In this document: positions 2,352 through 49,243 of the stretch, piece after piece | Numbering within the stretch: the first letter of the stretch is position 1 | Layout: each line of letters opens with the position of its first letter | Origin: a virus | Strand: one strand, 5' to 3' | Length of the DNA stretch: 64,000 nt | Virus record (IMG/VR): IMGVR_UViG_3300037189_006336 | Span: 1-64,000 of that record | The notes under the pieces: generated by a model | The model's database searches: none | What the model saw: the letters and a program-made list of their open reading frames with translations, nothing else | Told to the model about the DNA's origin: nothing | Position numbers and translations under genes: made by a program

Positions 2352-2364
2352 AAAAATAAAATAT

Positions 2365-2763: not shown

Positions 2764-2780
2764 TTAACTATTTTATGTTT

Positions 2781-2812: not shown

Positions 2813-2831
2813 GTTTTATAAATATTTTTTA

Positions 2832-2852
2832 GTATATTGTATTGTACAATAA
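2832..2852 (+). promoter_or_regulatory. Putative phage promoter element, copy 1
   Basis: The 21-nt element matches the one at 62583-62603 at 19 of 21 positions; the shared core is GTATATTRTATTGTACA followed by WTAA. It ends 18 nt before the ATG at 2871 and directly follows a terminator. The second copy stands 19 nt before the ATG of another virion gene. This shared sequence and placement suggest a phage-specific promoter or activator site. A TTTG at 2810-2813 sits 19 nt upstream of TATATTGT, a poor match to the host TAnnTTTG box, so host polymerase use is uncertain. Confidence 0.55.
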
Positions 2853-2870
2853 TTATATAAAATTACTATA

Positions 2871-11758: not shown

Positions 11759-11761
11759 GAT

Positions 11762-12436
11762 ATGCCAAAAAGTCTAATAGGTGATGTAGTATCGAGAATA
11801 CGTTCTCAAGTAAAAGCTGTTAAAACAGACAGTCTTCTTACAGACCGTGTTATATACACTTTTGTTTTAAAACACGCTAAGTTCCTTTTAAGACGAGAAG
11901 ATTCTAAGAATAAGATAATGTCTATGACATCTGTTATTCAAACTCTTCCTATTGTAGATCTTATAGAGGTAGATAAAATTGAAGCTCAATGTTCTGGTGT
12001 AAGTTCTGATTGTAAAATAAAAAGAACAAAAGATAGGCTTCCTACATTTCTAGAAGGATACTACGGACCTCTTATTAGAACGGTTGCTTCTGTAGATGGG
12101 TCAGAAGAGTTACAACCAACTCTTCCAAGTTCTTATTTAGCAATGGCTAATAGTAAAAACTTTAGATTTAATAAAACTAAATATTTTTGGTTCTTAAATG
12201 ACTATTTATATTTTCCTAACTTAGAATGGGACGCTGTAAGAATAGAAGGAATATTTGAAGAAGATATAAGTGCTTTTACCTGTGAGCCTGATGGTTGTAT
12301 AGATAAAACAGCTCAACCTTTTAATGTACCAGATTATCTTTATAGTGAACTTGAAGCTAATGTTGTAAAAGACTTATTAGGTCTTTATAGTGTACCAACT
12401 GATTCTACAATAGATAAACAAAATCCTTCTCGATAA
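11762..12436 (+). CDS. crAss-like tail ring/adaptor protein (224 aa)
   Basis: The N-terminus ('VVSRIRSQVKAVKTDSLLTD', then 'KHAKFLLRREDSKNKIM') and the middle ('IVDLIEVDKIEAQCSGV', 'FWFLNDYLYFPNLEWDAVRI') match what I remember of a conserved crAss-like structural protein located before the large muzzle gene. In related virions such small proteins form rings between the portal and the tail tip. Two Cys pairs (around SGVSSDCKI and CEPDGC) may help folding. The TAA overlaps the next ATG, so it is translationally coupled to the next ring candidate. Confidence 0.65.
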   Translation: MPKSLIGDVVSRIRSQVKAVKTDSLLTDRVIYTFVLKHAKFLLRREDSKNKIMSMTSVIQTLPIVDLIEVDKIEAQCSGVSSDCKIKRTKDRLPTFLEGYYGPLIRTVASVDGSEELQPTLPSSYLAMANSKNFRFNKTKYFWFLNDYLYFPNLEWDAVRIEGIFEEDISAFTCEPDGCIDKTAQPFNVPDYLYSELEANVVKDLLGLYSVPTDSTIDKQNPSR

Positions 12437-13371
12437 TGAATACCGAATTAAGATACAAAACTTTTGATGAGCTACTTAATGAAGTAGCTTCAGATTTTAG
12501 AGCTTATAACAATGAGGGTATGATTGAACCTGGGCAACTTATTAAAGTTGCTCAACGTGTTTCATATGATCTTGGTTTAAAAATTCATGGTACTAAAGAA
12601 AAGCTTATAGAAATAGAATATAGTAAAACAAAACTACCAGATGACTTTTACACTTTAAACTACGCAATGTTATGTAGAAGTTACAGAGTAGAAACTCCTG
12701 TTTTACAAGGAAGACAAACTGAGAATGTTGTTTTAAATAAAAAGAATGTTTATTTAAACGGTGAGCTTTGTAATAAATGTGGATATGAACAACAAGAATG
12801 TGGTTGTGAATCTACATATAGTGTACAATGTGAAACTGGTGAAAAGATATTTGTACAAGTTGTAGAAAAACGTAAAACAGAAACACGAGTATACGAAGAA
12901 TTTGAAAGAGTGTATATATCAGCTGATACTGGTAAACTAGATGCTTTAGATAGAGTTGGTAGTTATGATGAGCACCAACCACAACAAAAGACAGCTTATA
13001 TAAAGAATGGATTTATATATACTAATTTCCCTCAAGGAAAACTGTTTATATCCTATCAGGGGGCCCTGGAAGATGACAATGGAAATCTTCTTGTATTAGA
13101 TCATCCTATGATTAATGAGTATTATGAATATGCATTAAAACAACGTATACTAGAAAATTTATATATAGAAGGAGAAGATGTTGTACAGAGATTACAACTT
13201 ATAGAAACCAAACTAAAACAAGCGCGTAACTATGCGTTATCTATAGTAAACACTCCTAACTTCTCTGAGATGTATCAATTATGGCAGATGAATCGTAAAG
13301 CTCAGTATAGTAAATATTACGATATGTTTAAATCAGGAGAAGTACAAACATTGGTGTTACCTAAAAAATAA
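12436..13371 (+). CDS. crAss-like tail ring/adaptor protein (311 aa)
   Basis: It lies directly between a ring candidate and the muzzle-type gene, the usual place of a second ring protein in crAss-like genomes. The N-terminal half is helical ('LLNEVASDFRAYNNEGMI', 'LIKVAQRVSYDLGLKIHG'). A Cys cluster follows at about residues 112-125 (CNKCGYEQQECGC), which could bind zinc. The C-terminal half has a 'DDNGNLLVLDHPMINEYYEY' segment and a long helix (LQLIETKLKQARNYAL), as expected for a protein packing around the portal. Function is inferred from context and partial family memory. Confidence 0.6.
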   Translation: MNTELRYKTFDELLNEVASDFRAYNNEGMIEPGQLIKVAQRVSYDLGLKIHGTKEKLIEIEYSKTKLPDDFYTLNYAMLCRSYRVETPVLQGRQTENVVLNKKNVYLNGELCNKCGYEQQECGCESTYSVQCETGEKIFVQVVEKRKTETRVYEEFERVYISADTGKLDALDRVGSYDEHQPQQKTAYIKNGFIYTNFPQGKLFISYQGALEDDNGNLLVLDHPMINEYYEYALKQRILENLYIEGEDVVQRLQLIETKLKQARNYALSIVNTPNFSEMYQLWQMNRKAQYSKYYDMFKSGEVQTLVLPKK

Positions 13372-13377
13372 TAAAAT

Positions 13378-16300
13378 ATGCCAGATCAACAACAACCTAT
13401 GGCTCCGGGTGGCGTTAACACATTCTCTAAAGGAATGGTTAAAGATCATAATGAAACTTTTTTAGGAGAAGGTATATATACGCACGCGCGTAACGCGGTG
13501 AATAATTCACACGATGGTCAGATTGGTGTAATAGGTAATGAACCTTCTAATTTTAAATGTGTCCAACTACCATACACTCTTATTGGTAGTGTATATGTTT
13601 CTGAAAGTAAATGGGTAGTGTTTACTACTGATGATATTAATTCAGAAATAGGAATATTTGATGAGAATCTTTGTGGTAGTGAATTAGCTTATCAAAAGTT
13701 AGTTAACTCATCATGTTTAAACTTTAAACGTACAAATCCTATAACCGCAATATATCGTAAAAGATATGATTGTGAAAGAATAATATACTGGGATGATGGA
13801 TTAAATCCAACACGTTCTGTTGATATAGATAGATTAGATTATACATCATCTCTTCCAAATCTTCCTTTTGAATATACAGAAACTAATGTTAATGGTTGTA
13901 TACTTAAAAAATATACTTCAACATTAGATTGTGAGAAAATAAGAATTGTTCCTCGTATACAACACCCATGTTTAATTCTTACTAAGGGTGTATCCGCGGG
14001 AAGTTTACCTAACGGATCATATCAAGTGTGTATAGCTTATACAGTAAATCAGGTAAGAGTTACAGATCTTATAGGTCTTTCTGAAGTACAAAGTGTTTTT
14101 ACACATGAGAATACATCATCTAGTCTTAAACTCACTATTAGTAATATGGATTCATCTTTTGATGAGTTTGAAGTTGTATTAATAGCTGCGTTTAATCAAC
14201 AAACAGTTGCTAAAAGTATCGGCTTTTATTCTACTAGTCAAGGAACTATTCTTATAGATAGACTTGATAATGAGTTTGTTAATGTTCCATTAAGTGAGGT
14301 GGTGTTAAGAACAGAGCCTGTAGAAAAATCTGATGCGATATATACACTTAATAACTATGTACTTAGATTAGGCGTATATAGTAAATATAAGTTTAACTAT
14401 CAGTTACAAGCTAATGATATAAAAGCTAATTGGGTTGTTGTTAAATATCCTTTTGATTATTATTCTAAAGGCGGTAATAACACCGGATATATGAGAGATG
14501 AGCAGTATTCATTCTTTATAAGATGGGTTTATAATACTGGTGAGTTTAGTGAAAGTTATCACATACCGGGTAGAAAAGGATCAATTGATGAATTAAGTGA
14601 TTCTAGTAGTTTAGATGCATTTGAATCATTAGAAGGTGTTATTATTAAAAAGTGGCAGATTGAAAACACAGCTGTTATAACATCTTCTACTCAATCAACA
14701 CTTTCTGATGGTGGTGTTGTGATAGCTAAAGGATTAATGGGATATTGGGAATCTACAGAAAAATATCCTGGAGATAGACCTGATATATGGGGACCGCTTT
14801 GTGGTCAAGCTATAAGACATCATAAGATGCCAGATGTATCTATAAGTGATATGTTAAATCATTTTAGTGATGATGGAGGATCTATAAATATATTAGGTGT
14901 ACAGTTTGATAATATAGCACATCCTTTAGATCAGAATGGTGATATTATTAGTTCTATAGTTGGGTATGAAATATTAAGAGGATCAAGAGAAGGAAATAAA
15001 ACAATAGTAGCAAAAGGTCTTTTAAATAATATGAGAGAATATCCTATTCCAGGAAATATCTCTAATAAAGGATTAATGCAAAACTATCCATATAATGATT
15101 TGAGAGCTGATAGTTATTTAACTACTGAAGAACAAGATGGATATAATGGATCCGCTACACCTTCTAGTAGTAAGATGAGTGGATATAGACAAGATATATT
15201 TAGTTTTCATAGTCCTGAAGTCTCTTTTAGTAATCCTTATTTAAGTCTTAGTGAAGTTAAGGTGTATCAACAATTGAATGGTATATCTACAGGATCTTTT
15301 ACCACTCCTTATAAACATCCTAAATTTAAAGTATTAACTGACGCGGACTCTGTAATAGGAAGTATAGTTGGTGTTATATCTGCAGCTACAATATTTAGTA
15401 AAGGAATTGAAATAGGCGCTACTGCGGATAATCCTATAGGAATGAAAATAGGCCCCCTTCCTCCGTTTCCTACAGCATCATCAATTTTACCAACTGTAAG
15501 TTCTACTGGAGCACCTTTAGTACCTTCACTAGCTACTTTAGCTAGTGATGCTGCATATGTTGGTAACTTAGTTACTTGGGGAATAGAAGCTGCTCAAGCT
15601 ATTATATTTATAGCAACATTTGCTGAGTTACAGAAAGAAAAGTTTCTTTCTCTAATGATGATGTTAATACCTAAAGGACAGTTTGCTGCTCAATATACTA
15701 GTCATGGATTCTATAATAAATCAGTAACAAATAAAGCGGGAAATATTCGTAGAAAAGTAATAGATGTTTCTTATGTTGGAAATGGTGTACAACAGTTTGG
15801 TGTAGGTCATCAAATAAATAATCTAAACAGAAGTAAGGTGGTGGTGGTAAAAACAAGTAAAACACTACCAAACCCAACACTTCAAGATAATAGTAGATAT
15901 ACTATGGGTGATATTAATACAGAACTAAATGTAAATAATACAACTAATATATCATCTTACTATGGCGCTTTGAAAACAAGTCTTCCGTCACAATATGGTC
16001 AACTAGAAAGTATTAAACAACTTCCTATATCTACATGTATACAAGCTTCTAATCCTAAAAAGAATCAAGTTGTATCATCTGATGTTATGTTTGGAGGAGA
16101 TATTTATATTAACCGTTTTACAGAAAAGAATACAATGTTCTTTTTTAATTCTTGGTTAATGGGTGAACCAGATGAGATAGAGTATGATTATACATTATAC
16201 ACTAACGTACCATATCCTAGATTTTGGCTTAACAGTATTGAACAAAAACGTTCATTATTAATGACATCATCTAAATATAGAGTGTTAGATAAACGTGAAT

Positions 16301-18000
16301 CAGAAATCACTTATGTAAGAAAAGGATATTTTTATTTATTTAATTCTGGGGTAAGAGACTTTTTTGTAGAGAGCGAGATAAATCTAGGATATAGAGATTG
16401 GGATGATGATATAGCTAAACGACATTATGACCCGGCCAGATATACAGATCTTGTTTCTCTTTTTAGAAGTGATGTAATTAGAAGTGGTAACTTCTATAAA
16501 TATGATTATAGTCTTAGTATTTCTAAGTTATTTAATAGTTCTATATCGTGGGGTAATATGTTACCAAGAGATTATAATCCTACTACTGCATCTACATGTT
16601 ATGTATATAGACCAAATAGAGTAATATATTCTCTTCCGCAAAATGATCAAAGTAAACAAGATGCTTGGAGATTATTTTTAGCTAATAATTTTAAAGATTT
16701 TAGAAGTAGAGTAACTTCTATAAAAGCTATAAATAAAACAGGAGCGTTGTTTATGATGAAATATGCATCACCTGTTATGTTTATTGGTACAGAAGAACTT
16801 AAATTAAATGGTACTAATACAGCTGTTACAATAGGTAATGGAGCTTTATTTGCAAATAATCAAAACTTACAATCTACAGCTAATGCTGAAGATAGTTATG
16901 AATATGGATCTAATCAAAGTAGATTCTCATCTATAAATACAACTCATGGTGTATTCTGGGTAAGTCAAAATCAAGGTAAAATATTTGTATACGCTCCTCA
17001 TAAAGGAGAAAATATGGTGGATATTACAGCTAATGGAATGATGAAGTATTGGTTTGCTAAATATCTTCCTTCACAGCTTTTAAAAGTGTATCCAGGATAT
17101 ATTCAAGATGATAACACTATAATTGGAGTTGGTGTACAGATGAGTTATGATGCTACTAATGAAATAATTTATGTATCTAAAAAAGATTACAAACCATTAA
17201 CAGACAAACTAACATATGATGTAAATGGTAATTTTTATAACAATGGACAAAAAGTAGAACTCACTGATACAACTTATTTTGAGGAAGCATCTTGGACCGC
17301 GTCATTTGATCCTAAATCTAAGATGTGGATATCATTCCATGACTGGATTCCTACATTAACTTTAGCTGGTAGATTACATCTTATGTCTGTAAATAGTGAT
17401 TCTATATGGATGCATAATGTAAGATGTGATAGTTATTGTAACTTCTACGGAATAGATTATCCATTTGATATTGAGTTTGTATCATCTACTGGTCAACAAG
17501 TTAACTCTGTAAGAAACATTGAGTATCTTCTTGAAGTGTATAAGATGCATAATGATTGTAAAGATAAGTTTCATGTATTAGATACAAACTTTGATTACGC
17601 CATAGTATATAACTCAGAACAGATTTCGGGAACATTACATCTTAATTTAATGGATAGAAATAATCCATTAACTATATTAGGGTATCCTAAAATATATTCT
17701 GATCATATAGATATTAACTTTTCTAAAGTAGAACAGAAATATAGATTTAATCAGTTTTGGGATATAACAAAAGACCGTGGTGAGCGTAATTCATCTATAG
17801 ATGTTCCAATGTTTAATACCTCAGCTAATGGATATGAGTATCCAATTAATCCTGAGTATGTAAATTATGATAAAGTTTCTTTAGAACGTAAGAAGTTTAG
17901 ACACACTATTAATAAAGTGTTTTTAAGAAAATCTTTATCCGGTAATCAAAAGCTTCTATTTAAAATCTCTAATGTTAAAAATCTTAATTCTCCTAGATAA
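13378..18000 (+). CDS. Muzzle-type tail tip protein, often labelled 'stabilization protein' (1540 aa)
   Basis: The N-terminus is the part I recognise: 'GGVNTFSKGMVKDHNETFL', 'YTHARNAVNNSHDGQIGVIG' and 'YRKRYDCERIIYWDDGLNPT' are features of the large crAss-like protein that forms the muzzle closing the tail, also described as related to P22 gp10-like tail proteins. It is mostly beta-rich, with Ig/propeller-like strands. There is a hydrophobic Gly/Ala/Ile stretch at about residues 660-760 that may interact with membrane or pack inside the tail. It follows the ring candidates by 6 nt, and its stop overlaps the start of the first cargo-type gene (TAATG), linking tail tip and ejected proteins in one operon. 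Confidence 0.75.
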   Translation: MPDQQQPMAPGGVNTFSKGMVKDHNETFLGEGIYTHARNAVNNSHDGQIGVIGNEPSNFKCVQLPYTLIGSVYVSESKWVVFTTDDINSEIGIFDENLCGSELAYQKLVNSSCLNFKRTNPITAIYRKRYDCERIIYWDDGLNPTRSVDIDRLDYTSSLPNLPFEYTETNVNGCILKKYTSTLDCEKIRIVPRIQHPCLILTKGVSAGSLPNGSYQVCIAYTVNQVRVTDLIGLSEVQSVFTHENTSSSLKLTISNMDSSFDEFEVVLIAAFNQQTVAKSIGFYSTSQGTILIDRLDNEFVNVPLSEVVLRTEPVEKSDAIYTLNNYVLRLGVYSKYKFNYQLQANDIKANWVVVKYPFDYYSKGGNNTGYMRDEQYSFFIRWVYNTGEFSESYHIPGRKGSIDELSDSSSLDAFESLEGVIIKKWQIENTAVITSSTQSTLSDGGVVIAKGLMGYWESTEKYPGDRPDIWGPLCGQAIRHHKMPDVSISDMLNHFSDDGGSINILGVQFDNIAHPLDQNGDIISSIVGYEILRGSREGNKTIVAKGLLNNMREYPIPGNISNKGLMQNYPYNDLRADSYLTTEEQDGYNGSATPSSSKMSGYRQDIFSFHSPEVSFSNPYLSLSEVKVYQQLNGISTGSFTTPYKHPKFKVLTDADSVIGSIVGVISAATIFSKGIEIGATADNPIGMKIGPLPPFPTASSILPTVSSTGAPLVPSLATLASDAAYVGNLVTWGIEAAQAIIFIATFAELQKEKFLSLMMMLIPKGQFAAQYTSHGFYNKSVTNKAGNIRRKVIDVSYVGNGVQQFGVGHQINNLNRSKVVVVKTSKTLPNPTLQDNSRYTMGDINTELNVNNTTNISSYYGALKTSLPSQYGQLESIKQLPISTCIQASNPKKNQVVSSDVMFGGDIYINRFTEKNTMFFFNSWLMGEPDEIEYDYTLYTNVPYPRFWLNSIEQKRSLLMTSSKYRVLDKRESEITYVRKGYFYLFNSGVRDFFVESEINLGYRDWDDDIAKRHYDPARYTDLVSLFRSDVIRSGNFYKYDYSLSISKLFNSSISWGNMLPRDYNPTTASTCYVYRPNRVIYSLPQNDQSKQDAWRLFLANNFKDFRSRVTSIKAINKTGALFMMKYASPVMFIGTEELKLNGTNTAVTIGNGALFANNQNLQSTANAEDSYEYGSNQSRFSSINTTHGVFWVSQNQGKIFVYAPHKGENMVDITANGMMKYWFAKYLPSQLLKVYPGYIQDDNTIIGVGVQMSYDATNEIIYVSKKDYKPLTDKLTYDVNGNFYNNGQKVELTDTTYFEEASWTASFDPKSKMWISFHDWIPTLTLAGRLHLMSVNSDSIWMHNVRCDSYCNFYGIDYPFDIEFVSSTGQQVNSVRNIEYLLEVYKMHNDCKDKFHVLDTNFDYAIVYNSEQISGTLHLNLMDRNNPLTILGYPKIYSDHIDINFSKVEQKYRFNQFWDITKDRGERNSSIDVPMFNTSANGYEYPINPEYVNYDKVSLERKKFRHTINKVFLRKSLSGNQKLLFKISNVKNLNSPR

Positions 18001-33265: not shown

Positions 33266-36200
33266 ATGCTTTGTCCTAATATAAAAAGTCCTAAGTGGCA
33301 TAACCTTGTAGAAAAAATTGGTGAAACTAATGCTTGGAGAGAGTTCTTAGCTCATGGTGAAATACCAGAAGCTAATAAGTATGAACAATCTGAAGGTAAT
33401 AAAATACAGTATTCTATTCGTACTAAAACTACAGAAGAGATCCAAGAAAGTTTAAAAAATGAAAATGTTAAAACTGGTAATACCATAAAGTATACAAATG
33501 CTGTTAAGTCAATGTTACTAGCAAGGATTGGTGATATTACTCCAAATGTAGAGTTAACAACTAATCCAACTACTGCTTTTAATAATATTAAAGATACTTT
33601 TAATAATATTAAAAATGGACTTATTTTATTAATGGATAGTGTACCAGATGAAGCTACTTATAATGAGGTAGTATCATCACCAGAGTATTCTTCTGGTGAA
33701 ATACAAAAATTATTACCAACACTTAAATATATTAAATCTTATGAAGATATAGGTAAAGCATTATCTATGTATTCTAGTTTAGTAGAAGACTTTGATAAGT
33801 ATAAAGAATATGCTACAGCTGATCTTTCTAAACTAGGTGTTATTATAAAAAATAACAAGATTACAAAAGTTGATACTAAAGATGAGAATAATGATAAAAC
33901 AGATGATGAAAAAGATGAAATAGAAATTACAGCTGTTGAACAAGGTTCTCAATTTGCAGATGGTAGACAATTTCAAACAAATACAAGGGATACAGCTAGT
34001 CAAAGAGTAAAAGCTTTACTTCATACTATTAAAACAGGTGAAACAGAATTTGGTCTTCCTTTATATGCTAGTCCAGATGATGTTAATGATGATATATTAC
34101 ACATTGGTTCTAAAATGAAACTTACAAACTTTGGTAACAATGAAAGTAAGTTGACTGAGTTTAATAAAGCTTTAGCTGAGCGCGCTGCAACAAGAACTTA
34201 TTTAGGAGATTTACAAGCTAAGATTGCTAATTATATAAATAAAGGTGATACAACAGTTCTTAATCAGATAGTGACATATGCTACTAAAGCATATGCTAAT
34301 GAAAACATCTTATTATATAAATCTGAAAGAATAGGTAATGATATAACCGGAATTAGTAATGTTAAAATATTTGGAAATAATCGTGACTCTGTTGAAGAAC
34401 AAGTAGCTAGAGATTGGGTTGCTAGTCATGTATCATCTAGTACAGGGTTTTATATTACTAACGCATTAAATGAAAGATTTCCAAATCCAGTTAAAGTTGA
34501 TCAATTAAAAAATATTATAGAAAAAGCTAAAGAAGTAAATAGTGATAAAAAAGAACTATTTAAAAACTTCTTTGATACACTTGGTATTACATTTAGTGAC
34601 CAGGATATGAATGTTATATATAATAATCTTGCTACTAGTATTAGAAAAGGACAAACTTTTGATAGTTTGTTTGCGCCTAATAATATGTTGGATAATATAT
34701 ATAAGAGTTATAATGATAATTTAAATACTGCATTTGAAAATCAATATGGTTTTCAAGATCAGGGTACGACTATGAGTAAGTTAGCTACTATGTACTATGA
34801 TCTAAATCCTCAAAAGTATAATGTTGTATCTGCTACAAGCGCGGATGGTAAAAATAAATACCTTTATATAGAAACATCACATGTTGAAAATATAAAAAGA
34901 AACTGGGAAACTGATAGAGAAAAAGGTACCAGTACACATAGAGTGTTTAAATCTGCATTTGCTAAACCTAATTTAGACTTCTGGAATGATGCTAAAACAG
35001 GTAAGACTAAGTTTAAACTTGAATACTTTAACGGTAGCCGAGATGAGTCATCTAATAGAGATGGTAAAGTAAGAAAAAACTTTACATCAAAAGAACAAAC
35101 TGTTAGTATGTTTTTAAATCATCAAACAGCTAACACATATATTAGCTTTACCTTATCTGATAAAACATCTAGTTTACAAACAACTATAGATAAAGAATTC
35201 TTTATTGATTCTAAAAAGAAAGAAAGTGGTAGTTCTAATCCAATGGGTAAGAATGTTGATTTTGGTATAAGTCAATCTACTGGAGCGGCTATATATAGTG
35301 AAGCATTTAAAAATAAACTATATATGAATCTTGTAGCTCCTGAAATATCTAGAATACAAGCTTCTATAAAAGCCGGTGATCGTATTAACGTAGAAGATTT
35401 TCAAACAGCTTCTAAGTTGTTTTATATTATTCCAAGTATTAATATTGATGAAAGACTTGAAGACTTTAGAAAAGATCTTTATGCTGGAAATAATGTATCT
35501 AAATATAGAGCTTTAATTGGTCAGGTTGTTTTAGATGATATGATAAAGTCATCTGAAAAACAATTAGAAAAGTTGGTAGAAAATGATGTTATAAGAAGAA
35601 GTGATAAAGATGTATATACTTTTCATTTATTTAATAAAGACTATGTAAATAGATTTAGACAAACAGGTTTGGTAAATAGAAACTTGGCTCTAACTATGAT
35701 AATGGATCTAAAGACAAACTATATGAATGCTCAGGTTAAAAACCTACAGTTTTTTGGTTTTGATCCTATGAATGCTTTCAAACGTTATAGTAAATCTTTT
35801 ACAGAAACGGATATAACTAAGTTTACAGTTGATGATAAATTAAAATGTATAAACTCTACATGGGATGAGTTTTCTAAACGTGCGGCTGGTCTTATAGCTC
35901 CAGGATCTCAAGGAACCTGGATATGGAATAATGTTAATGGTAAAGAATATCGTAGTACAACATATAAAGCTGTTACAGCTAAAGATGTTAAAATAGCCGG
36001 TAGTGAAACAACTGATGCTCAAGAGTTTACTACAGTACAAGAACATATAGATTTCTTAATGAGTGAAGGAGATATACCATTAAGTATATGGCAATCTATC
36101 CACGATAAAATAGAAGCAGCTAAAAATACAAAAGATAAGTATTATGAACTTACAGGTAAAGAAATGGAATATCTGATGAGTCCTATTAAACCTGTACAGT

Positions 36201-39200
36201 TTGCTGATGTAAATGAAGCTGAAAATCTTAATAGGATAGATTATGTTAAGTCATCAAGGTTTCCGTTAATTCCTCAAAATGAAATACACTCTGAACGTAA
36301 TAAGTTGAGACTATTAATGGAGAACAATGACATCCAATCTGTCAACTTTGCTTCAGCTAAAAAACTTGGTAGACCTTCTGAGTCTATACAATTATTTGAT
36401 GAGAATAATAATTTTGTAATACCAGATTTAACCAGTAAAGAAAATACATTTTATCAAACTCTAACTAGAGATGGTTTAAGAAAACAACAAGTTGTACCTG
36501 ATCAAAAAGATCATATAATGACAATTAGTCAGATGAATCGTACTCTTCTAGATGGTCTTCTTGAAAGTGATGGGTTTAAACTTAAAGACTTATCTCTAAA
36601 AGGATCTGAACTTAAAAAGTATAAAGAAGCTGTAAGAAGTAAATTATTCGAGTTAGCCACTAAAAAATTAGATGATGAACTTGGAGATTTGAGTAGATCA
36701 CATAGAGGATTACATAAACTACTTACAGATGTAATAAAATCAGATACTACAGGTAGTTATACAAGTAATGATCTTAGAGCTTTAGAGCTAGGCGCAGATG
36801 GTAAGTTTAAAATACCACTAGAAGTACAGTTTAAGTATAACAAGTATCAATCTCTAATTAACTCACTTATAAACAAGAACATAATGTTAAAAGTTAACGG
36901 TTCTAGTTTTATTCAAGTCAGTGGTATTGGTGCCAAGTATACTTTTTCTGAAACAAGTAGTAATTTAAAATCTGGTATTATCTGGGTTGATAAGCATATT
37001 AAAGATGGTGAACCAACAACTCTTAAATATCTTCGTAATGAAGATGGTAAGATACAAGGGGCCCAGGTAATAGTATCACAATACATAAGAGATGAAAAAG
37101 GAAAACTAATAGATTTATCACAGTTTATAATAACAGATGAAACTGGAAGAAAGATATTAGATACACACGCTTTTACTGATGATATGTTTCAAATGATTGC
37201 GTCACGTATTCCAAATCAGTCTCATCCATCTATGCTTCCTATAGAAGTGGTAGGTTTCTTATCAGGTAATGTACAAAACAGTATTATTGTACCAGATGGT
37301 ATTACCGGTCAAATGGGATCTGACTTTGACGTAGATAAATTATTTACATATCTTTCTAATACAGTTATAAGAAGAAACGATAATGGTAAGATAGATAGAG
37401 TAATGTCTACTGACTATAATCTTAAATCTATAGATGATATAAATAGTATGAATGAAGAACAGTTATTACAGTTGTATAAAGATATACACTGGGCGGCTCT
37501 TACTCATCCTGAAGCATTTGATAAGATAACAAGCTCAGTAGATTTACCGGAAGTAAAAGGAATGATAGCTGATAGAAATGTGTTATTAGAAAAATACGGT
37601 ATTTCTAAAAATATTACATCTTCTCTACCTCTTGATTTTAATACTAGTACTGATAGGTTTAATGATAACAGATCTGCTAAAGATGGGGTTGCTATATTCG
37701 CAAACTATATCTCAGCTCAAGCTGATTTTCAAGATAAAGTTATTACACTAGGTTACACTGATAAAGAAGGTGAAGCTATACTGAACGGTATACAAGTTAA
37801 ATTAGATAAAAATAAACCAGTTACAGAATTATTATACCTTGGTAAAGAAGGTAAGTCTGAGTCATTAACAAAAGACGATAAAGGTAAAACACTTCCATTG
37901 CGTACTATAGGTGATGTTGTTAATATGATGATGACAGAGTCAGTTGATAATGTTAAAAATCAAAACCTAAAAGAATTCAATTGGGATAAGAAATCTATGT
38001 CCGCTATTGGAGTATTTAGTATGTTAACTGATGAAGATGGAAACGCCCCATCTGTTGAGTTTAGCGCAAACTTAACATCTCAATACACTATTTACAAATA
38101 TTTCAATATACTAGAACAAAAACAAGATAGTTTTGGTGAGTATGATGCTGACGCTAAAAAGAATGCTTTTCTTGAAACACAAGATTCTCTTATAAAGAGA
38201 ATTGAAAAATATAAGTTACTTCCTGCTAATGTAGTAGTAGAACAATACTTATCTGATCCTGATAGAAAAGATAAAGTGTTAGATCCAGCTACATTAAAAG
38301 ATATGTGGGTTGTAGGTATGGCTTTACAAGATGGTGGTTATAAAGAGTATCAAGATAAAGTAACAGCTAGTCAACCAACAACTGATACAAAACTTATGAA
38401 GATCGCTGCAGATTTAAACTTTAAATCTGTAAATGATATGCTATTGAAATATTATACAACACAGTTTGATAGTCTTGAATTATTTGATAAATTAGATAAT
38501 CTTGGTCAAGAATTCAACACTATTCTTGGTAGTGTATATACTTATACAAAAGGTATTGGTTCAGACGTATTTACAACTAAACAAAAGATTAATCAATTGA
38601 TGAAGTTAAAAACATCATCAAACTTTTTAAATCTAGATAAAATAGCCGGTAATATAGATAGAGATGAAAATACTGGTATGGTTAATATATCACCTATTGG
38701 AGAAATTGGTAACGCTATTAATAATTCTTTAATAAAAGCACAATCTTATTATCAAAAGTTATTTCCTATAAGTGTTAGTAAGTCTATTGATAAAATAGCC
38801 GGTGCATTAGTATCTACTACAGGTGTAGCTAGATTAACTGATGTAGGTAAGAATAAATTTGTTTCTACTTATAATGATGCTTTTAGAGGTATTAAGAACT
38901 ATTTATTTACTGAAAGAGGTCTTGAATTATTTTCTAATGCTATAGAAGAAAGAGAGAAACTTATTAATGGACCAACGTCTATTGGAGCGCGAGTAGCTGC
39001 TATAAAACAAAGCGGAGATAAACAGTTATCTAGTAATGGGTTCTTAAAGAATATAGATGTAACTGCTCAGATAAAAGGTGGTGATGCATATGTTATGAGT
39101 TTTAAATCACCATTTGGTGGTGATATAGATGAAAACATAGTTGCTTCTGGTTTCTATGAATTAGTTAATCACCCTAAAGAAGAGATAAGACAACTTGCTA

Positions 39201-42200
39201 AAGACTTAGCTATATATCCTTTTGCTACAGGAGATGCTGGTAATATAGGTAGATTTATACCTGTAGAATACTTGATGACTGATAAGGACTTTAACAAAGC
39301 TATGAAAGACTTAAACTCAACTTATAGTTCTGAAATATTAATTGATAACCCTTATACATTAGATACACTTATAAAACAAATTGTACAAAATGATCCTAAG
39401 ACATATAGTAAGAAGTTTAAGTTTGGTACTATTATAGAACAAGGAGAGAATGATAATACTTTCAAGAAGCTAATAAAACAATCAGGTATTCTTGAAGCTG
39501 GTGTTAATGATTTATCTAAAGTTCCTAGTTTTAAATTAAAAATTGGTACGTTAGAAGATTATGCTAAAGCTAATCCAAAAGCTTCAGGAATAGTGAGTTC
39601 TTTTAAAGTTCCTTTATCTGATGATGAGAAAGAAAGACTTGGTGATAAAGCTTTATATATAGACTTTAAATATCCTGATTATGTAATGATTACAGATAGT
39701 GTCGTTGATAATATGACAGAATATGGTGAGTACAACAGAGATAATAACTATCTGTATAAAAGGATGTCTAAAATAGGTGATCCTGAAGCTAGATATCAAC
39801 GTATTCCTATTTTAGGATATAAAAATATTAGAGAATTTGATTTTAAAAATGATTCTTTATATTCTGCTATTAAACAAAATCATATTGATAATAGTTTTGT
39901 TCCTCAAGTAAAAGCTCAAGAAGCTGAGAGTGTACAATCAGGAAATAATACATCTGATAAAATATATTCTGAATTAGGTGAAAAGACTCAATCTAAGAAT
40001 GTAATTCTTCCTAAAGATGTAGATCCTGAAGCTGATAATGTTGGTATGTCATATACTACAGCTATTGATTTTTGGAGAAAAATAGTACCAGAAGCAATGA
40101 CTCTGTATAATAAATCTCAACCGTTAATTGTAGCATTTAGAGGTGATTCTAAAAAAACATTCTTACAGAACTATAAAACTAGTACAAATACAATAGGTAA
40201 TCCTTTTGATTTTAGAGATGAAGCTGGTGATAGAAAACAACAAGGTATTACATCTACTAAGAAATTTATAGACTGGATGATTACTGGTAATAATCAAGGT
40301 AATCAAAATGCTACAGAAGAATATAGACAAGCTATTATAAATGATATCAAATCGGGAAGATTAAAGAATAGTTCTATATTATACTATGAAGAAAAAGGAT
40401 ACGCTACTCATGCGACAGCTTTAGATTATTTGATTAACAAATATGATTGGAGTAATCAAGAAACTAAAAATACATCTTCTCCTTTCATAGAAGGTGTACA
40501 TAAAACTTATGAAGGAAAGATAGAAAAATTAGCTCCTAATCAAGTGTATGTATTCGGTAGTAATCCAGAAGGAAGACATGGCGCTGGTTCAGCGTTAGAT
40601 GCTAGAAACAAGTTTGGAGCTATATATGGTAACGGAAGAGGAGAACAAGGACAATCATATGCTCTTGTTACTAAAAATCTTACTCCAGGGTACACTGAAA
40701 AATCTACAGGTATCACTTATGAAAAAGCTGGGGAAAAGAGTATAAGTAAAGAACAAATAACAAACAACATTAAAGACTTATATAAGATAGCTTCAGAAAA
40801 TCCTGAGAAAGAGTATGTAGTAGCTTATAAAAAAGATTCAAAAAATCTTAATGGATATTCTTCACAAGATATGGCTGATATGTTTTCTAGTCAACCTATT
40901 CCTAGTAATATGGTTTTTGAAAAAGGATTTAATGATTTAGTAAGATCTGGTCAAGAAAAAACTAATGTACAATCATCTAATACAGAACAATCAATAGATA
41001 AGAATAACAAAATAAATATCTATTCTACTGAAAAGAACGGATATGAAGACTTAAGTAACTTTGCTGTTAGACCTTTTGATGTTGGTGATAATTATAGATT
41101 TAATACAGTAGAAGGAGCTTTTCAAGCTTTTAAATTTAGCGAAACATTTCCTATACAAGATGATTATCAAGAAATAATCAAAAAACTACAAACAGCTAGC
41201 GGATCAGAAGCTAAAACTATTGGAAAAACTATTGAAAATCTTAATAAAGAAAAATGGGATGCTAAAAGTTCTTCAATAATGAAGACTGTATTAAAAGCTT
41301 CTTTTGAACAAAATCCTGAAGCTCTTGAAAAACTTTTATCTACAGGTAATGCTGAGCTCACTCATACACAAGATAATAGTAAATGGAAAACAGAGTTTCC
41401 TAGATTATTAATGGAAGTAAGAAATGAACTAAGAAATACAAAAACAATTGATCAACCAGCTTTTACAGAGTCTGAAGAACAACAACAAAAGACTAACAAC
41501 ATACAAACAGATATTGTTAAATATGGTAATGGATCATTTAGTTCACAATTTATTGTAGAACATGAGGGACCTTACTCTGGAGAACTTAAAAAAATATTTT
41601 ATGTAAGTAAAGGTGAAAAAGGTAAAGAAGTAACTGATCCTGGGCTGTTTTATAAAGTATCACTTAAACATGATACAATGATACATCCACAAGATGTTGT
41701 CACTATTAAACTAGGACTTAACGAACACTCATATTTTATTGATATGGAGGGTGCCGTTGTTTCTTTACAAGAAAGTAGTTATGGTACTCAGATTACATCA
41801 AAAGATGTTTTAAAAAGAATATTTCAAGAAAAAGATAAAAAACTTGAGGATAAGATTGTTGATCAACATAATGAAGATGTGGTAGAAAAGGTTCCTGAAG
41901 GTGAAAAACCTAAGTTTGAATATAATGGAACAAGTGTTACTACAGAGTTTCCTTTAAGTGAAGAACAATCACAAGCTCTTAAAAATCTTATTGATTTTGT
42001 TGAGAATAAAACTACAGGTGAAGGAGAATATAATGGTGTACATACTTTAGAAGGATATGCTGGTACAGGTAAGACATCTATTATTGGTATACTAGAAAAA
42101 TATATGAAAGTTAAAGGTGGTGGAGCTAAGTTTATATACATGGCACCTACTCACGCAGCTACTGTTGCTCTTGGTATAAACATTGTAAAATATGGATCTA

Positions 42201-44425
42201 AGACTTTTCCAATAACAATTCAATCTTCTATAAGAACAACAGTTAAACAAAATAGAGAAATAACAAATTTTACTAGAAAGTTTAATGATAGAGCTACAGG
42301 TTTAAAAAACATTATTGTTTTAGATGAAGTATCTATGTTAGATAATATAGAATTTAGTAGACTTGTAGCTACAGCTAAAGCTTCAGGACATCGTGTTATT
42401 TTCATAGGTGATCCAAAACAAATCACAGCAGTTAAAACTGATAATGATGATGATAATAACAAAACAACACCAACTAAAAATATATCAAAAGCTTTTCTTA
42501 ACCCAAATATAAGTAAGTTAAATCAAATCTTTAGAACTAAAGACAACAACATTTTAACTGTTTTAACAAATATAAGAAATGCTAATAAGTTTAATGAACA
42601 AATGTTTGAATCAACTGATACATTAAAACAACTTACTAAAAGTGATTATAATGATGAATTGATTAATGACTTAAAAAATAATGTTGAAGACACTATTATA
42701 TTAAATTATACAAATGATGGTGTAGCTAAAGCAAATAAAAGCGCAAGAGAAGTATTAGGATATGAAGGTGAATTAAAAGTAGGAGAAAAAATAGTTGGTT
42801 ATATTGGATCTGAAACAAAAGAAATAGAAAAAGGAGAATTAGCTAATTCTGTTACATATGTTGTAAATAATATAGAAAAATCTGAAAATGGTCCTATAAC
42901 AATAACAGCAACTAGCAAATTACTATCTCATCTTTTAAAAATGGGGATGGGTGGTATATCTGATTATACAGTATTTACATACTTGAATATGTCTAACGCG
43001 GACGTTCATAACTATGGTTTAACTTCTGAACAAATGGAGTTTAATAAAAATTATTTAAAACAGTATTTGAAAAAGATTCATGTTCTTAATACTCAGTATG
43101 ATAATGGTAATGGAAGATTAGAGTATGTTGACTATTTACAAGCTGTATACCTGGTAAGAAAAGAACTAGCTAGTATAAATACTGGAGCAAAGTATATTTA
43201 TAATCCAAAAACTGATAGTGTTGAACTTTATAATGAACGTACACACGGAAAGTATGGTTTAAATATAGCTCATAATCTGAAAATGGATAAAGGTATAGAT
43301 TTTGGATATGCTGTTACAGTACATAAATCACAAGGTATGAGTATACCTATTGTTTATGTTGATATGGCTAGTATTAGAAACATGAAGCGTACAGATATTC
43401 TTAGAAATGGTGAGTTATACAATACAGAACAAAATGCTATTTATTATGTAGCTTTATCCAGAGCCTCTCAAAAATTAATTGTTAGTAAAGGTGAAAATGC
43501 TAGTACATTCTCACAAGCTCCGAATGAATATATGGAAGATAGTCCTTTGAGTTTTTTAGATAATAACATGTCAATGTTTCATGATCAGATAGCTATTAAC
43601 TCTGTATTTGGAGAAGATAGTACAAATATCAGTGTTAATGATTTACTTAAAAATATAAAAGCAAACGCTAATCCATTTAACACACAAGTAGTAAATTCTA
43701 TTATAAAAGCTAAACCTAGTCCATTTAAAGTAACAGTAGACTATAAAGCTGAAAATCCTGGTATGTATGATCTAAATAGTAAACAAATAACTATCAATCC
43801 AACATTAGCTATTAAAGATTATACTGAGATTAAAGATAAAACTCAAGCTTTACATGATGTAGTTATACATGAGATAATGCATCATCTTACAGCTGATTTA
43901 CTTAACGCAGATCCTGATACCTTATCTGTAGCACAGAAAAAATATGTATTAGCTATTAAGAATCTATTTAATGATACTCAAAAGAAAATATTAAATGATG
44001 AGGAACACAAAGAAGCTCTTAAGAATGCTATAGAACAAACTAATAAAGAAGGTGGTTTCTTATCTCAAGCTGATAAGAGTAAGTATTATGGTTTGACTAA
44101 TGTTCATGATTTTGTATCTATGATGATGAGTGATAAAGGTTTTAGAAACTTTATGAATCAAACAAAATACTCAGGTAATAAATCTATTATTGACAGGTTT
44201 ATAGATATCTTAGCAACTCTTCTTGATTTATTCAAAGGTCAGATAAAAGAAGATAGTGTTTTACATGAAGGATTATCTAATATTATTGGTTTACTTGGAA
44301 CAAGAGTTGATGATCAAATACAAAGATCTATAAGAACCGAAGAGGCTTTTTCATTTAAAGAAAACGTTATGCTAGATAACTTTAATGATATAATAAAATT
44401 ATTAGATATAAAAACAAAATGTTAA
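33266..44425 (+). CDS. Giant virion RNA-polymerase-like protein fused to macro-like, NADAR-like, SF1 helicase and HExxH domains (3719 aa)
   Basis: Domains in order. Residues ~1-2200: RNA-polymerase-like region, with 'RIPNQSHPSMLPIEVVGFLS' followed by MGSDFDVDKLF; D1353, D1355 and D1357 form the DxDxD metal site expected in a double-psi beta-barrel polymerase. ~2290-2400: a GNPF domain (NTIGNPFDFRDEAG ... ATALDYLINKYDW). ~2420-2560: macro-like module ('QVYVFGSNPEGRHGAGSALD'). ~2580-2720: NADAR-like domain ('EKNGYEDLSNFAVRPFDVGD', VEGAFQAFKF). ~2900-3420: SF1/RecD-type helicase with Walker A GYAGTGKT (2930-2937), VLDEVSM, GDPKQI, VTVHKSQG and ALSRA. ~3535: HEIMHH, a zincin-type metallopeptidase site. 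Crassvirus relatives carry virion polymerases that transcribe early genes; the fused enzymes may act on host defence or the polymerase itself (inference). Confidence 0.8.
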   Translation: MLCPNIKSPKWHNLVEKIGETNAWREFLAHGEIPEANKYEQSEGNKIQYSIRTKTTEEIQESLKNENVKTGNTIKYTNAVKSMLLARIGDITPNVELTTNPTTAFNNIKDTFNNIKNGLILLMDSVPDEATYNEVVSSPEYSSGEIQKLLPTLKYIKSYEDIGKALSMYSSLVEDFDKYKEYATADLSKLGVIIKNNKITKVDTKDENNDKTDDEKDEIEITAVEQGSQFADGRQFQTNTRDTASQRVKALLHTIKTGETEFGLPLYASPDDVNDDILHIGSKMKLTNFGNNESKLTEFNKALAERAATRTYLGDLQAKIANYINKGDTTVLNQIVTYATKAYANENILLYKSERIGNDITGISNVKIFGNNRDSVEEQVARDWVASHVSSSTGFYITNALNERFPNPVKVDQLKNIIEKAKEVNSDKKELFKNFFDTLGITFSDQDMNVIYNNLATSIRKGQTFDSLFAPNNMLDNIYKSYNDNLNTAFENQYGFQDQGTTMSKLATMYYDLNPQKYNVVSATSADGKNKYLYIETSHVENIKRNWETDREKGTSTHRVFKSAFAKPNLDFWNDAKTGKTKFKLEYFNGSRDESSNRDGKVRKNFTSKEQTVSMFLNHQTANTYISFTLSDKTSSLQTTIDKEFFIDSKKKESGSSNPMGKNVDFGISQSTGAAIYSEAFKNKLYMNLVAPEISRIQASIKAGDRINVEDFQTASKLFYIIPSINIDERLEDFRKDLYAGNNVSKYRALIGQVVLDDMIKSSEKQLEKLVENDVIRRSDKDVYTFHLFNKDYVNRFRQTGLVNRNLALTMIMDLKTNYMNAQVKNLQFFGFDPMNAFKRYSKSFTETDITKFTVDDKLKCINSTWDEFSKRAAGLIAPGSQGTWIWNNVNGKEYRSTTYKAVTAKDVKIAGSETTDAQEFTTVQEHIDFLMSEGDIPLSIWQSIHDKIEAAKNTKDKYYELTGKEMEYLMSPIKPVQFADVNEAENLNRIDYVKSSRFPLIPQNEIHSERNKLRLLMENNDIQSVNFASAKKLGRPSESIQLFDENNNFVIPDLTSKENTFYQTLTRDGLRKQQVVPDQKDHIMTISQMNRTLLDGLLESDGFKLKDLSLKGSELKKYKEAVRSKLFELATKKLDDELGDLSRSHRGLHKLLTDVIKSDTTGSYTSNDLRALELGADGKFKIPLEVQFKYNKYQSLINSLINKNIMLKVNGSSFIQVSGIGAKYTFSETSSNLKSGIIWVDKHIKDGEPTTLKYLRNEDGKIQGAQVIVSQYIRDEKGKLIDLSQFIITDETGRKILDTHAFTDDMFQMIASRIPNQSHPSMLPIEVVGFLSGNVQNSIIVPDGITGQMGSDFDVDKLFTYLSNTVIRRNDNGKIDRVMSTDYNLKSIDDINSMNEEQLLQLYKDIHWAALTHPEAFDKITSSVDLPEVKGMIADRNVLLEKYGISKNITSSLPLDFNTSTDRFNDNRSAKDGVAIFANYISAQADFQDKVITLGYTDKEGEAILNGIQVKLDKNKPVTELLYLGKEGKSESLTKDDKGKTLPLRTIGDVVNMMMTESVDNVKNQNLKEFNWDKKSMSAIGVFSMLTDEDGNAPSVEFSANLTSQYTIYKYFNILEQKQDSFGEYDADAKKNAFLETQDSLIKRIEKYKLLPANVVVEQYLSDPDRKDKVLDPATLKDMWVVGMALQDGGYKEYQDKVTASQPTTDTKLMKIAADLNFKSVNDMLLKYYTTQFDSLELFDKLDNLGQEFNTILGSVYTYTKGIGSDVFTTKQKINQLMKLKTSSNFLNLDKIAGNIDRDENTGMVNISPIGEIGNAINNSLIKAQSYYQKLFPISVSKSIDKIAGALVSTTGVARLTDVGKNKFVSTYNDAFRGIKNYLFTERGLELFSNAIEEREKLINGPTSIGARVAAIKQSGDKQLSSNGFLKNIDVTAQIKGGDAYVMSFKSPFGGDIDENIVASGFYELVNHPKEEIRQLAKDLAIYPFATGDAGNIGRFIPVEYLMTDKDFNKAMKDLNSTYSSEILIDNPYTLDTLIKQIVQNDPKTYSKKFKFGTIIEQGENDNTFKKLIKQSGILEAGVNDLSKVPSFKLKIGTLEDYAKANPKASGIVSSFKVPLSDDEKERLGDKALYIDFKYPDYVMITDSVVDNMTEYGEYNRDNNYLYKRMSKIGDPEARYQRIPILGYKNIREFDFKNDSLYSAIKQNHIDNSFVPQVKAQEAESVQSGNNTSDKIYSELGEKTQSKNVILPKDVDPEADNVGMSYTTAIDFWRKIVPEAMTLYNKSQPLIVAFRGDSKKTFLQNYKTSTNTIGNPFDFRDEAGDRKQQGITSTKKFIDWMITGNNQGNQNATEEYRQAIINDIKSGRLKNSSILYYEEKGYATHATALDYLINKYDWSNQETKNTSSPFIEGVHKTYEGKIEKLAPNQVYVFGSNPEGRHGAGSALDARNKFGAIYGNGRGEQGQSYALVTKNLTPGYTEKSTGITYEKAGEKSISKEQITNNIKDLYKIASENPEKEYVVAYKKDSKNLNGYSSQDMADMFSSQPIPSNMVFEKGFNDLVRSGQEKTNVQSSNTEQSIDKNNKINIYSTEKNGYEDLSNFAVRPFDVGDNYRFNTVEGAFQAFKFSETFPIQDDYQEIIKKLQTASGSEAKTIGKTIENLNKEKWDAKSSSIMKTVLKASFEQNPEALEKLLSTGNAELTHTQDNSKWKTEFPRLLMEVRNELRNTKTIDQPAFTESEEQQQKTNNIQTDIVKYGNGSFSSQFIVEHEGPYSGELKKIFYVSKGEKGKEVTDPGLFYKVSLKHDTMIHPQDVVTIKLGLNEHSYFIDMEGAVVSLQESSYGTQITSKDVLKRIFQEKDKKLEDKIVDQHNEDVVEKVPEGEKPKFEYNGTSVTTEFPLSEEQSQALKNLIDFVENKTTGEGEYNGVHTLEGYAGTGKTSIIGILEKYMKVKGGGAKFIYMAPTHAATVALGINIVKYGSKTFPITIQSSIRTTVKQNREITNFTRKFNDRATGLKNIIVLDEVSMLDNIEFSRLVATAKASGHRVIFIGDPKQITAVKTDNDDDNNKTTPTKNISKAFLNPNISKLNQIFRTKDNNILTVLTNIRNANKFNEQMFESTDTLKQLTKSDYNDELINDLKNNVEDTIILNYTNDGVAKANKSAREVLGYEGELKVGEKIVGYIGSETKEIEKGELANSVTYVVNNIEKSENGPITITATSKLLSHLLKMGMGGISDYTVFTYLNMSNADVHNYGLTSEQMEFNKNYLKQYLKKIHVLNTQYDNGNGRLEYVDYLQAVYLVRKELASINTGAKYIYNPKTDSVELYNERTHGKYGLNIAHNLKMDKGIDFGYAVTVHKSQGMSIPIVYVDMASIRNMKRTDILRNGELYNTEQNAIYYVALSRASQKLIVSKGENASTFSQAPNEYMEDSPLSFLDNNMSMFHDQIAINSVFGEDSTNISVNDLLKNIKANANPFNTQVVNSIIKAKPSPFKVTVDYKAENPGMYDLNSKQITINPTLAIKDYTEIKDKTQALHDVVIHEIMHHLTADLLNADPDTLSVAQKKYVLAIKNLFNDTQKKILNDEEHKEALKNAIEQTNKEGGFLSQADKSKYYGLTNVHDFVSMMMSDKGFRNFMNQTKYSGNKSIIDRFIDILATLLDLFKGQIKEDSVLHEGLSNIIGLLGTRVDDQIQRSIRTEEAFSFKENVMLDNFNDIIKLLDIKTKC

Positions 44426-48151: not shown

Positions 48152-49243
48152 CTAATTTTTAATTTCAAAAGGATGCTTCATAATAAAACAATCCTGTGGT
48201 TGATCCGTATGTTTTTTAAAGCCGTTAATATAGCTTTGTATATTTGTAGATCCAACTGGATTATGTGAATGACAACATGCTTTCCAAGATAATAAAGTTT
48301 TATACTCATTTTCTAAAATACTGATATCAGGAATAAAAAATGGATGTCTAAATTTATAATCTATATTTGGTTGTAAAATAGATGGTTTTGTAATAGGTAA
48401 ATCATTAGCATTTTTCCATATAAAACCTTTACTTGTTTTATATAAATTTCTTGCACAAGCTCTTATTGATGAAGCACTAAATCCTAGTTGTCTAGCAGCT
48501 TCTTCACTACTACCATAAACGTCAATTAAGTTATTATTAATATCATATTGAGCTATTGGTATACTAATAGACGTATTTTCAGAAACTCTGCTTCTTTTTT
48601 TTGGTCTTATATTATTATTTATAGCATGTTCATTATTTTCTTTAGATGTACACCATTCTAAATTACTCCAATGATTGTTCCATCTATTCCCATCTATATG
48701 ATTTATTTGTGATTTATTATCAATATTAACAATAAACGATTCAGCAACAAGTCTATGAATCTTTTTTCTACTTTTATTACCATTACCATCATATAATGTT
48801 ACCATTAAACCAGTAACTGATTTATCAGGTTTAAGAAAAGCATTTGTCTTTCCATTTTTTTTATTATATCCTTTATGAATAATTCTTCCAAAATTAGATA
48901 CTTTATAAATAGATTCATAACCAGGTATGTCTTTCCATACTTCTTCTGTATATAATAATCTTTTCTGACAATGTTCTACTAACCAACGCGCGCAATCTAG
49001 TCCGGTTTTTTCTTTATACTGTCCGTAGTTAGGATGTTGAAATCCTTCTACCATAAGTTGTTTGTAATAGTCATCCATATGTTCCTGGGCCAGGTCATGA
49101 TCAAAAGAGATCAGATCTGGTATACCGTTTTTGGATATGTATTCTACAAACTCATCATAGTTTCTTACAACATTCCATGGATGATATCCGGGAATAGTTA
49201 CAGTTGGGATACGCGTATCATCTAGATATAATGCTTTCTTCAT
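48152..49243 (-). CDS. cREC-type receiver-like protein interrupted in frame by HNH homing endonuclease (363 aa)
   Basis: Residues 1-95 match a small phage family with a receiver-like fold (cyclic-phosphate processing REC): LDDTRIP, 'NVVRNYDEFVEYISKNG', 'PDLISFDHDLAQ' and 'KTGLDCARWLVEHC'. The family's usual ending, SHNPVG-x-x-NIQSYI, appears only at residues 326-339. Between them sits a homing-endonuclease cassette: NUMOD4 (EVWKDIPGYESIYKVSNFGR, 101-120), HNH (HRLVAESFIV ... NHIDGNRWNN, 163-206) and NUMOD1 ('IPIAQYDINNNLIDVYGSSE' to about 278). The frame stays open throughout. It may be a single fusion protein, or a group I intron with its endonuclease frame running on from exon 1. The host domain is probably cytosolic, linked to RNA-end chemistry by family association only. 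Confidence 0.75.
   Translation of the reverse strand: MKKALYLDDTRIPTVTIPGYHPWNVVRNYDEFVEYISKNGIPDLISFDHDLAQEHMDDYYKQLMVEGFQHPNYGQYKEKTGLDCARWLVEHCQKRLLYTEEVWKDIPGYESIYKVSNFGRIIHKGYNKKNGKTNAFLKPDKSVTGLMVTLYDGNGNKSRKKIHRLVAESFIVNIDNKSQINHIDGNRWNNHWSNLEWCTSKENNEHAINNNIRPKKRSRVSENTSISIPIAQYDINNNLIDVYGSSEEAARQLGFSASSIRACARNLYKTSKGFIWKNANDLPITKPSILQPNIDYKFRHPFFIPDISILENEYKTLLSWKACCHSHNPVGSTNIQSYINGFKKHTDQPQDCFIMKHPFEIKN
48404..48949 (-). mobile_element. NUMOD4-HNH-NUMOD1 homing-endonuclease insertion
   Basis: This interval covers residues ~99-280 of the receiver-like gene. Its limits are approximate and are set by where the host-domain motifs stop and resume. The domain order NUMOD4, HNH_3, NUMOD1 is standard for free-standing and intron-encoded HNH endonucleases of phages, which copy themselves into uncut alleles. 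No stop codon or frameshift occurs within it, which is unusual for a free-standing gene. A further ~45 residues (281-325) before the host motif resumes are unassigned. Confidence 0.7.

Follow-up and report, generated by a model that had tools for sequence, protein, structure and literature searches.

The window, as we call the whole 64,000-nucleotide stretch of viral DNA analysed here, encodes a giant protein of 3719 amino acids, whose fold is that of a crAss-like virion RNA polymerase (RNAP) and whose architecture places it among the polyvalent proteins (PMC5512222). Several unrelated effector domains (a GNPF domain, a macrodomain, a NADAR domain, an SF1 helicase, and a zincin-like domain) follow the polymerase in this one chain, which is encoded by a mobile element. 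The new part of this arrangement is the combination of a two-barrel polymerase with a helicase and the ADP-ribose trio (GNPF, macrodomain, and NADAR, all predicted to act on ADP-ribose). At evenly balanced confidence, we propose that the protein is delivered with the virion, starts early transcription and brings an ADP-ribose-removing counter-defence into the cell. The positions of the gene, its domains, and its neighbours are listed in Table 1.

Table 1. Location of the giant gene, its domains and the flanking genes in the window
Feature	Residues or length	Position	Strand	Basis or remark
Virion-RNAP/toolkit giant, single ORF	3719 aa	33266..44425	+	ATG to TAA, no interruption
crAss-like two-barrel virion RNA polymerase region	~1-2150	33266..39715	+	Fpv3 gp32 alignment, 6VR4 profile, AF2/Foldseek; C-terminal limit near 2150 is an estimate
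DFDVD metal-binding motif	D1353-D1357	37322..37336	+	Aligned with DFDID of phi14:2 gp66
GNPF domain, divergent DUF4326-like (weak)	~2285-2396	40118..40453	+	Own profile, E=2e-48
Macrodomain (phrog_2072), TARG1-like fold	2406-2565	40481..40960	+	phrog_2072, E=3.5e-28
NADAR domain	2586-2720	41021..41425	+	PF08719, E=1.3e-13, 52 bits (cut-off 35.1)
SF1 Dda/RecD-type helicase	2895-3407	41948..43486	+	phrog_325 Dda-like helicase, E=9.7e-57; AAA_30, E=1.5e-18; PIF1; UvrD_C_2
Zincin-like HExxH domain	3454-3690	43625..44335 (HEIMH at 43868-43882)	+	Homology to Fpv3 4024-4210 and cr116_1 551-752
Upstream protein	1774 aa	27932..33256	+	Conserved as previous gene in nearest relatives
Downstream protein	1169 aa	44427..47936	+	phmmer matches to next gene of L029, L030, L031, L041; position of phi14:2 gp65

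The reading frame

The 3719 codons run from ATG to TAA as a single open frame, as the initial annotation had claimed, and the domains are not split by a frameshift. At the base composition of the window, a stop-free run of this length has a log10 P of ~ -140. GC3 lies between 0.11 and 0.18, and codon-position GC is even along the entire ORF. The landmarks of the single domains were found where they had been reported: DFDVD at residues 1353-1357; GNPF at 2311; the macro-like FGSNPEGRHGAG at 2430; NADAR at 2588-2703; the SF1 helicase motifs; and HEIMH at 3535.

The window comes from a 73.1-kb virus record and also lies, with 100% identity where compared, within a 121,793-base contig (L215) of the same virus. 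This contig encodes an identical protein sequence, may represent another assembly of the same data, and extends the window upstream with terminase, portal, and capsid genes. Searches of viral contigs with single proteins returned only the same virus. Equivalent fused frames of 3652-4189 aa, with RNAP regions 52-55% identical, are present in four distinct uncultivated relatives (L029, L030, L031, and L041), so that the fusion is not an assembly chimera. A frameshifted or chimeric ORF was rejected on these grounds, and an artefact of assembly or annotation that joined separate genes, to which the metagenomic source might point, is wildly improbable given the uniform codon signal, the same fusion in the four relatives, and further fusions in the deposited genomes of cr50_1 and cr126_1.

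Polymerase region

Sequence matches and predicted fold together show that residues ~1-2150 form a full-length crAss-like polymerase, i.e. more than a motif; the fold was matched over the modelled segment (residues 800-1990) as a whole. The 6VR4-type fold and the DxDxD motif, which together mark crAss-like two-barrel virion RNAPs, are both present. A phmmer search with the whole 3719-aa protein missed 6VR4 (phi14:2 gp66), which was matched once the polymerase segment was used alone (residues 900-1400; E=7e-15). A profile built with 36 relatives matched it with E=2e-189 over 1143 positions, while a five-member polymerase alignment was too divergent as a search query. The three Asp residues of the DxDxD motif and the following Lys are invariant across the 36 relatives, as are an R and a P.

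Structure prediction, suggested earlier as a check on the polymerase assignment, recovered the polymerase fold. Foldseek placed the AF2 model of residues 800-1990 (pLDDT 83.4, pTM 0.80) closest to 6VR4 (E=2e-34; TM 0.66 by query), followed by QDE-1 (E=2e-5) and P23-45-type phage polymerases. A chance occurrence of a polymerase-like motif was rejected. Fpv3 gp32 (4287 aa) covers the N-terminal ~2060 residues of the window protein (E=1e-79), with residues 124-2062 aligned to 1786-3894 of gp32. As had been surmised, the C-terminal ~1500 residues consist of added enzyme domains, joined in the same chain to a polymerase of full length.

GNPF, macro, and NADAR domains

The Pfam Macro profile had no sequence match in the window, and PDB sequence-profile searches for the macro and GNPF domains gave nothing meaningful. 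The AF2 model of the macrodomain (pLDDT 92-98) displays the macrodomain fold. Its top Foldseek matches were TARG1 (prob 1.00, TM by target up to 0.66), alphavirus macrodomains, and DarG; those to TARG1 and the viral macrodomains had prob 0.97-1.00 and E from 8e-3 to 6e-2. The family phrog_2072 is a divergent macrodomain branch. The pair T2469-K2470 is invariant in the alignment, and K2470 may correspond to the catalytic lysine of TARG1.

The NADAR domain combines a profile match with the catalytic Glu/Lys. E2616 and K2623 are the equivalents of the catalytic E/K pair and are kept in 63 of the 64 relatives with a letter there. The domain also matches the structure of E. coli YbiA (E=1.4e-9). 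The glutamate found in the last strand of the YbiA subfamily is absent from the window NADAR, which has Thr-His at that place. A histidine was described for phage NADARs (PMC11125620); its structural equivalence to the Thr-His of the window is putative.

The Pfam DUF4326 model did not match the window. Of the 42 GNPF relatives assembled, 16 matched it weakly (best E=0.018, below the cut-off), and DUF4326 was the only Pfam family matched by many of them. As far as these matches go, GNPF appears weakly DUF4326-like. The GNPF part of the structure model rests on three sequences and is therefore weak. Mixed alignments of single-domain rows misplaced the GNPF and NADAR rows, and the second structure prediction used the macro rows together with two multi-domain rows.

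Helicase and zincin domains

The SF1 helicase possesses the complete motif set (Walker A/B and III-VI), including Walker A at residue 2930, DEVSM at 3020, GDPKQ at 3048, HKSQG at 3353, and ALSRA at 3396. The H, E, and H residues of the zincin HExxH are invariant in 11 sequences; at the third-ligand position, the downstream Glu of the relatives is Asp in the window. The zincin profile also matched the N4 virion RNAP at residues ~2223-2321 (E=0.005; 11fw, E=7e-4) and the internal virion protein 9sfn (E=2e-8). Our first local zincin profile strayed into the adjacent GNPF segment (a spurious match at 2218-2355), and the motif was made mandatory when it was rebuilt; zincin numbers from the tree described below are therefore not to be used.

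Genomic context

PHROG matches in the 121.8-kb contig include TerL (E=2e-58), portal (E=1e-84), and MCP (E=2e-30). The portal (L215, 5474-8230) matches many crassvirus portals at 21-25%, and its best match is that of the unclassified Leptolyngbya phage Lbo-JY46, which has a cyanobacterial host (32% over 84%). Within a comparable late-gene cluster, this phage encodes a giant of 2748 aa that contains two HExxH motifs; a polymerase core was not detected within the stretch of it examined. Replication genes of the window virus lie on the opposite strand from the transcription block. An HNH endonuclease gene (window 48152-49243, minus strand) stands directly after the transcription block as the first gene of the replication block. 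Structural genes at window positions 11171-18000 match virion-structural PHROGs without function.

The TerL of 1089 aa is encoded upstream of the window (L215, 1393-4662). Its TerL-family matches are split near residue 486, and the segment after this residue is common to primase and DnaC-like families. This sequence pattern suggests an intein or other insert.

Fused domains among related polymerases

The initial annotation had judged the protein against crAss-like virion polymerases of usually near 2200 aa, a baseline that turned out to be unfair. A polymerase-motif-only search yielded 68 dereplicated polymerases with complete C-terminus, a sample of those nearest to the window. At least one add-on domain was present in the same frame in 44 of them. 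Zincin was the most frequent (39), followed by helicase (13), macro (8), GNPF (5), and NADAR (5); all five occurred together in the window only and in none of the 68 relatives. The tail after the polymerase core has a median length of 1393 aa (n=68), compared with ~773 aa in phi14:2 and ~2313 aa in the window, and the ORFs reach 5210 aa. Fusions of this kind are frequent among these polymerases, so the window protein does not depart from a 2200-aa norm.

Viral contigs were also searched with the small domains alone. Counting loci with near-duplicate viruses included, the RNAP core was in the same ORF as GNPF at 38 of 48 loci and as NADAR at 46 of 57, and in each case elsewhere in the locus at four more; for macro, 32 of 79 had the core in the ORF and 40 were stand-alone. 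The small-domain queries alone thus still recovered the RNAP core in the ORF, and the association of GNPF and NADAR is polymerase-driven.

When 101 polymerase cores were placed on a tree, the window fell together with L029, L030, L031, and L041 (support 100), all of which have the architecture RNAP-macro-helicase-zincin. Macro and helicase are common to the window and these four nearest relatives, and zincin is common to Fpv-type phages. Within this clade, GNPF and NADAR occur in the window alone, having been either gained in its line or lost in the others. The three domains GNPF, macro, and NADAR, which are neighbours in the window protein, also occur together in two other lineages, L141 (RNAP-GNPF-macro-NADAR-helicase) and L094/L113/L180 (the latter one contig). 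Domain order varies: helicase-macro-RNAP (L086 and L089); NADAR-RNAP (L186, L191, and cr126_1); and RNAP-zincin-macro-helicase (L103). The minimum numbers of presence changes on the tree were 26 (GNPF), 24 (macro), 26 (NADAR), and 10 (helicase), exact values being inflated by sampling of loci selected for these domains; N-terminal domains are undercounted because many ORFs are cut at the N-terminus. Despite the inflated numbers, the kit has been swapped often among related polymerases. Since related phages have shuffled versions, the design recurs, and the window is a rich case of it, not a one-off.

Polymerase giants of this family were also seen in isolate genomes, namely one of 5491 aa in Chitinophaga sp. 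YR573 (L299) and one of 3367 aa, with the helicase, in Spirosoma oryzae DSM 28354 (L319). Both are possibly prophages. An ART-PolyVal domain was recognized in cr116_1 (residues 248-376; Pfam E=9e-13) and, by eye, in the tail of L038; in L038 and L166 the region is located after NADAR. Some kits thus appear to pair an ADP-ribosyltransferase with ADP-ribose removers. In L322 (cr131_1), fragments of NADAR, the RNAP core, and zincin occupy short, stop-broken frames under table 11 and the annotated genes are long, which is consistent with stop-codon reassignment.

Comparison with deposited and described systems

Like the window polymerase, phi14:2 gp66 (PDB 6VR4) and PhiCrAss001 gp49 are two-barrel single-chain RNAPs with a DxDxD motif. 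The phi14:2 protein is colinear with the window polymerase over ~1100+ residues and also lies between large cargo genes, but it has 2180 aa and none of the five extra domains, and a zincin-like region is located in the next gene, gp65. The gp32-type proteins of the Flavobacterium phages Fpv3 and Fpv4 (4287 aa) share with the window both the aligned polymerase and a C-terminal zincin, but have ~1785 more N-terminal residues and lack GNPF, macro, NADAR, and helicase.

Several deposited genomes, including those of gut phages, carry partial versions of the kit. QOR58058 of cr50_1 (Cohcovirus hiberniae; 4774 aa) unites RNAP, macro (54% identical to that of the window), and helicase in one chain; unlike in the window, its HExxH region is N-terminal to the RNAP, and NADAR and GNPF are absent. 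Its annotation reads 'DNA helicase', with the polymerase unmentioned. QOR59539 of cr126_1 (Kolpuevirus hominis), annotated 'DUF1768 domain-containing protein', combines NADAR with RNAP, but the NADAR is N-terminal, and QOR58373 of cr118_1, annotated 'DNA helicase', combines RNAP with helicase; in each of the two, one add-on was detected. Further architectures are macro-RNAP in cr112_1, ART-zincin-macro-RNAP in cr116_1, and a macro C-terminal to the RNAP core in Kolpuevirus 'frurule', which grows on Bacteroides cellulosilyticus. Because these genomes carry them, NADAR, macro, and helicase fusions are already in public data, undescribed in the searchable literature. Our literature search, with most subscription papers outside its reach, found no paper that combined crAss-like, RNA polymerase, and NADAR or that described these fusions.

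Similar designs are known from other polymerases. Coliphage N4 gp50 is a giant virion-injected polymerase with an HExxH domain homologous to that of the window; it is, however, a T7-type enzyme of unrelated fold, and macro, NADAR, and GNPF are not reported for it in the available text of PMC5512222. Thermus phage P23-45 gp96 (5002 aa) resembles the window protein in that its giant chain unites a two-barrel virion RNAP and a metallopeptidase, but it is fused to the tail tape measure, and the accessible part of PMC10770324 reports neither ADP-ribose domains nor a helicase. The principle is already known, because the class of polyvalent proteins (Iyer et al. 2017; PMC5512222) holds N4-type polymerases fused to zincins, ARTs, and other effectors.

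Proposed role and alternatives

Packaging of the protein in the virion is inferred from its homologs phi14:2 gp66 and PhiCrAss001 gp49. The former was found in virions by MS/MS according to its record note, and the Fpv3 homolog is annotated as virion structural. Virions of PhiCrAss001 contain the three RNAP-associated proteins (PMC10172136), and for N4 the polymerase is presumed to leave the virion like beads on a string (PMC12633501). Because the polymerase homologs are virion proteins and such ejection is presumed for N4, the most likely reading is a multi-purpose protein that is injected as a first strike. In this scheme the capsid would hold the protein, which would pass through the tail as a chain of loosely connected domains and refold in the host cytoplasm. 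The polymerase would then transcribe early genes off the incoming DNA, and the C-terminal kit would arrive at the same moment.

The domains are identified, GNPF only weakly and the C-terminal one as zincin-like, and from these identities we infer every enzymatic role. NADAR and the TARG1-like macrodomain may act on the incoming DNA, freeing its guanine- and thymine-type adducts of ADP-ribose (DarT-type defence), or may instead destroy ADP-ribose-based signals. GNPF may handle a related phosphate or ribose product. The helicase could clear or open the template near the polymerase, and the zincin may have a packaging/regulatory or a processing function, comparable to that in N4, whose polymerase is unrelated. 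NADARs reverse guanine-ADP-ribose (PMC11543638, PMC11125620), and virion-packaged Macro/NADAR proteins were proposed as counter-defence (PMC9503650). The NADAR of T4 gp30.3 shows this activity in vitro; in cells, however, DarT1 toxicity is not rescued by non-cognate NADARs (PMC11125620), which leaves DarT unproven as the target. We put forward only tentatively the stronger claim that the polymerase chain erases ADP-ribose from the incoming genome before the first transcript, that the kit changes between phages in line with the defences of their hosts, and that GNPF is a new polymerase-associated ADP-ribose enzyme.

It is conceivable, if somewhat doubtful, that the ADP-ribose domains target soluble host-immunity signals (cyclic ADP-ribose variants and NAD-derived toxins) and not DNA, fusion to the polymerase only securing their delivery. 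This is the view taken of phage Macro/NADAR/DUF4326 domains in PMC9503650, where DUF4326, which GNPF weakly resembles, is proposed to process phosphates of ADP-ribose products. The NADARs assayed in PMC11125620, however, act on guanosine-ADP-ribose, and fusion to a DNA-dependent polymerase and a helicase puts the domains at the DNA.

Zincins are proposed as processing enzymes of polyvalent proteins (PMC5512222), and the giant might accordingly be a self-processed polyprotein, cut by its C-terminal zincin at assembly or post-entry so that polymerase, ADP-ribose enzymes, and helicase act separately. The invariant HExxH and the rank of zincin as the commonest add-on (39/68) agree with such processing, which we nevertheless regard as rather unlikely. 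The homologous HExxH subdomain of N4 remains in the 3500-residue chain, whose C-terminal domain is described as regulatory (PMC12633501); virions of P23-45 contain gp96 at full size (PMC10770324); and no cleavage site was identified in the window protein.

Still more unlikely, in our judgement, is that the fused domains serve the polymerase itself (as clamp or in template opening, promoter search, or autoregulation), with the enzyme folds kept mainly as binding modules. Although the C-terminal domain of N4 autoinhibits its polymerase (PMC12633501) and a helicase within the chain would be well suited to opening the template, the free gain and loss and the variable order of the domains are unlike a structural part of the polymerase, and the E/K pair of NADAR is conserved.

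Implications

Two unrelated polymerase folds, the two-barrel crAss-type and the T7-type of N4, have independently acquired related HExxH domains and other effectors. Public annotations mask the polymerase giants by listing them under 'DNA helicase' or 'DUF1768 domain-containing protein'. Few phage proteins encounter the host as early as virion polymerases do. Should their chain indeed include defence-erasing enzymes, the survival of phages under DNA ADP-ribosylation before their own gene expression would become testable in cultured crassviruses.
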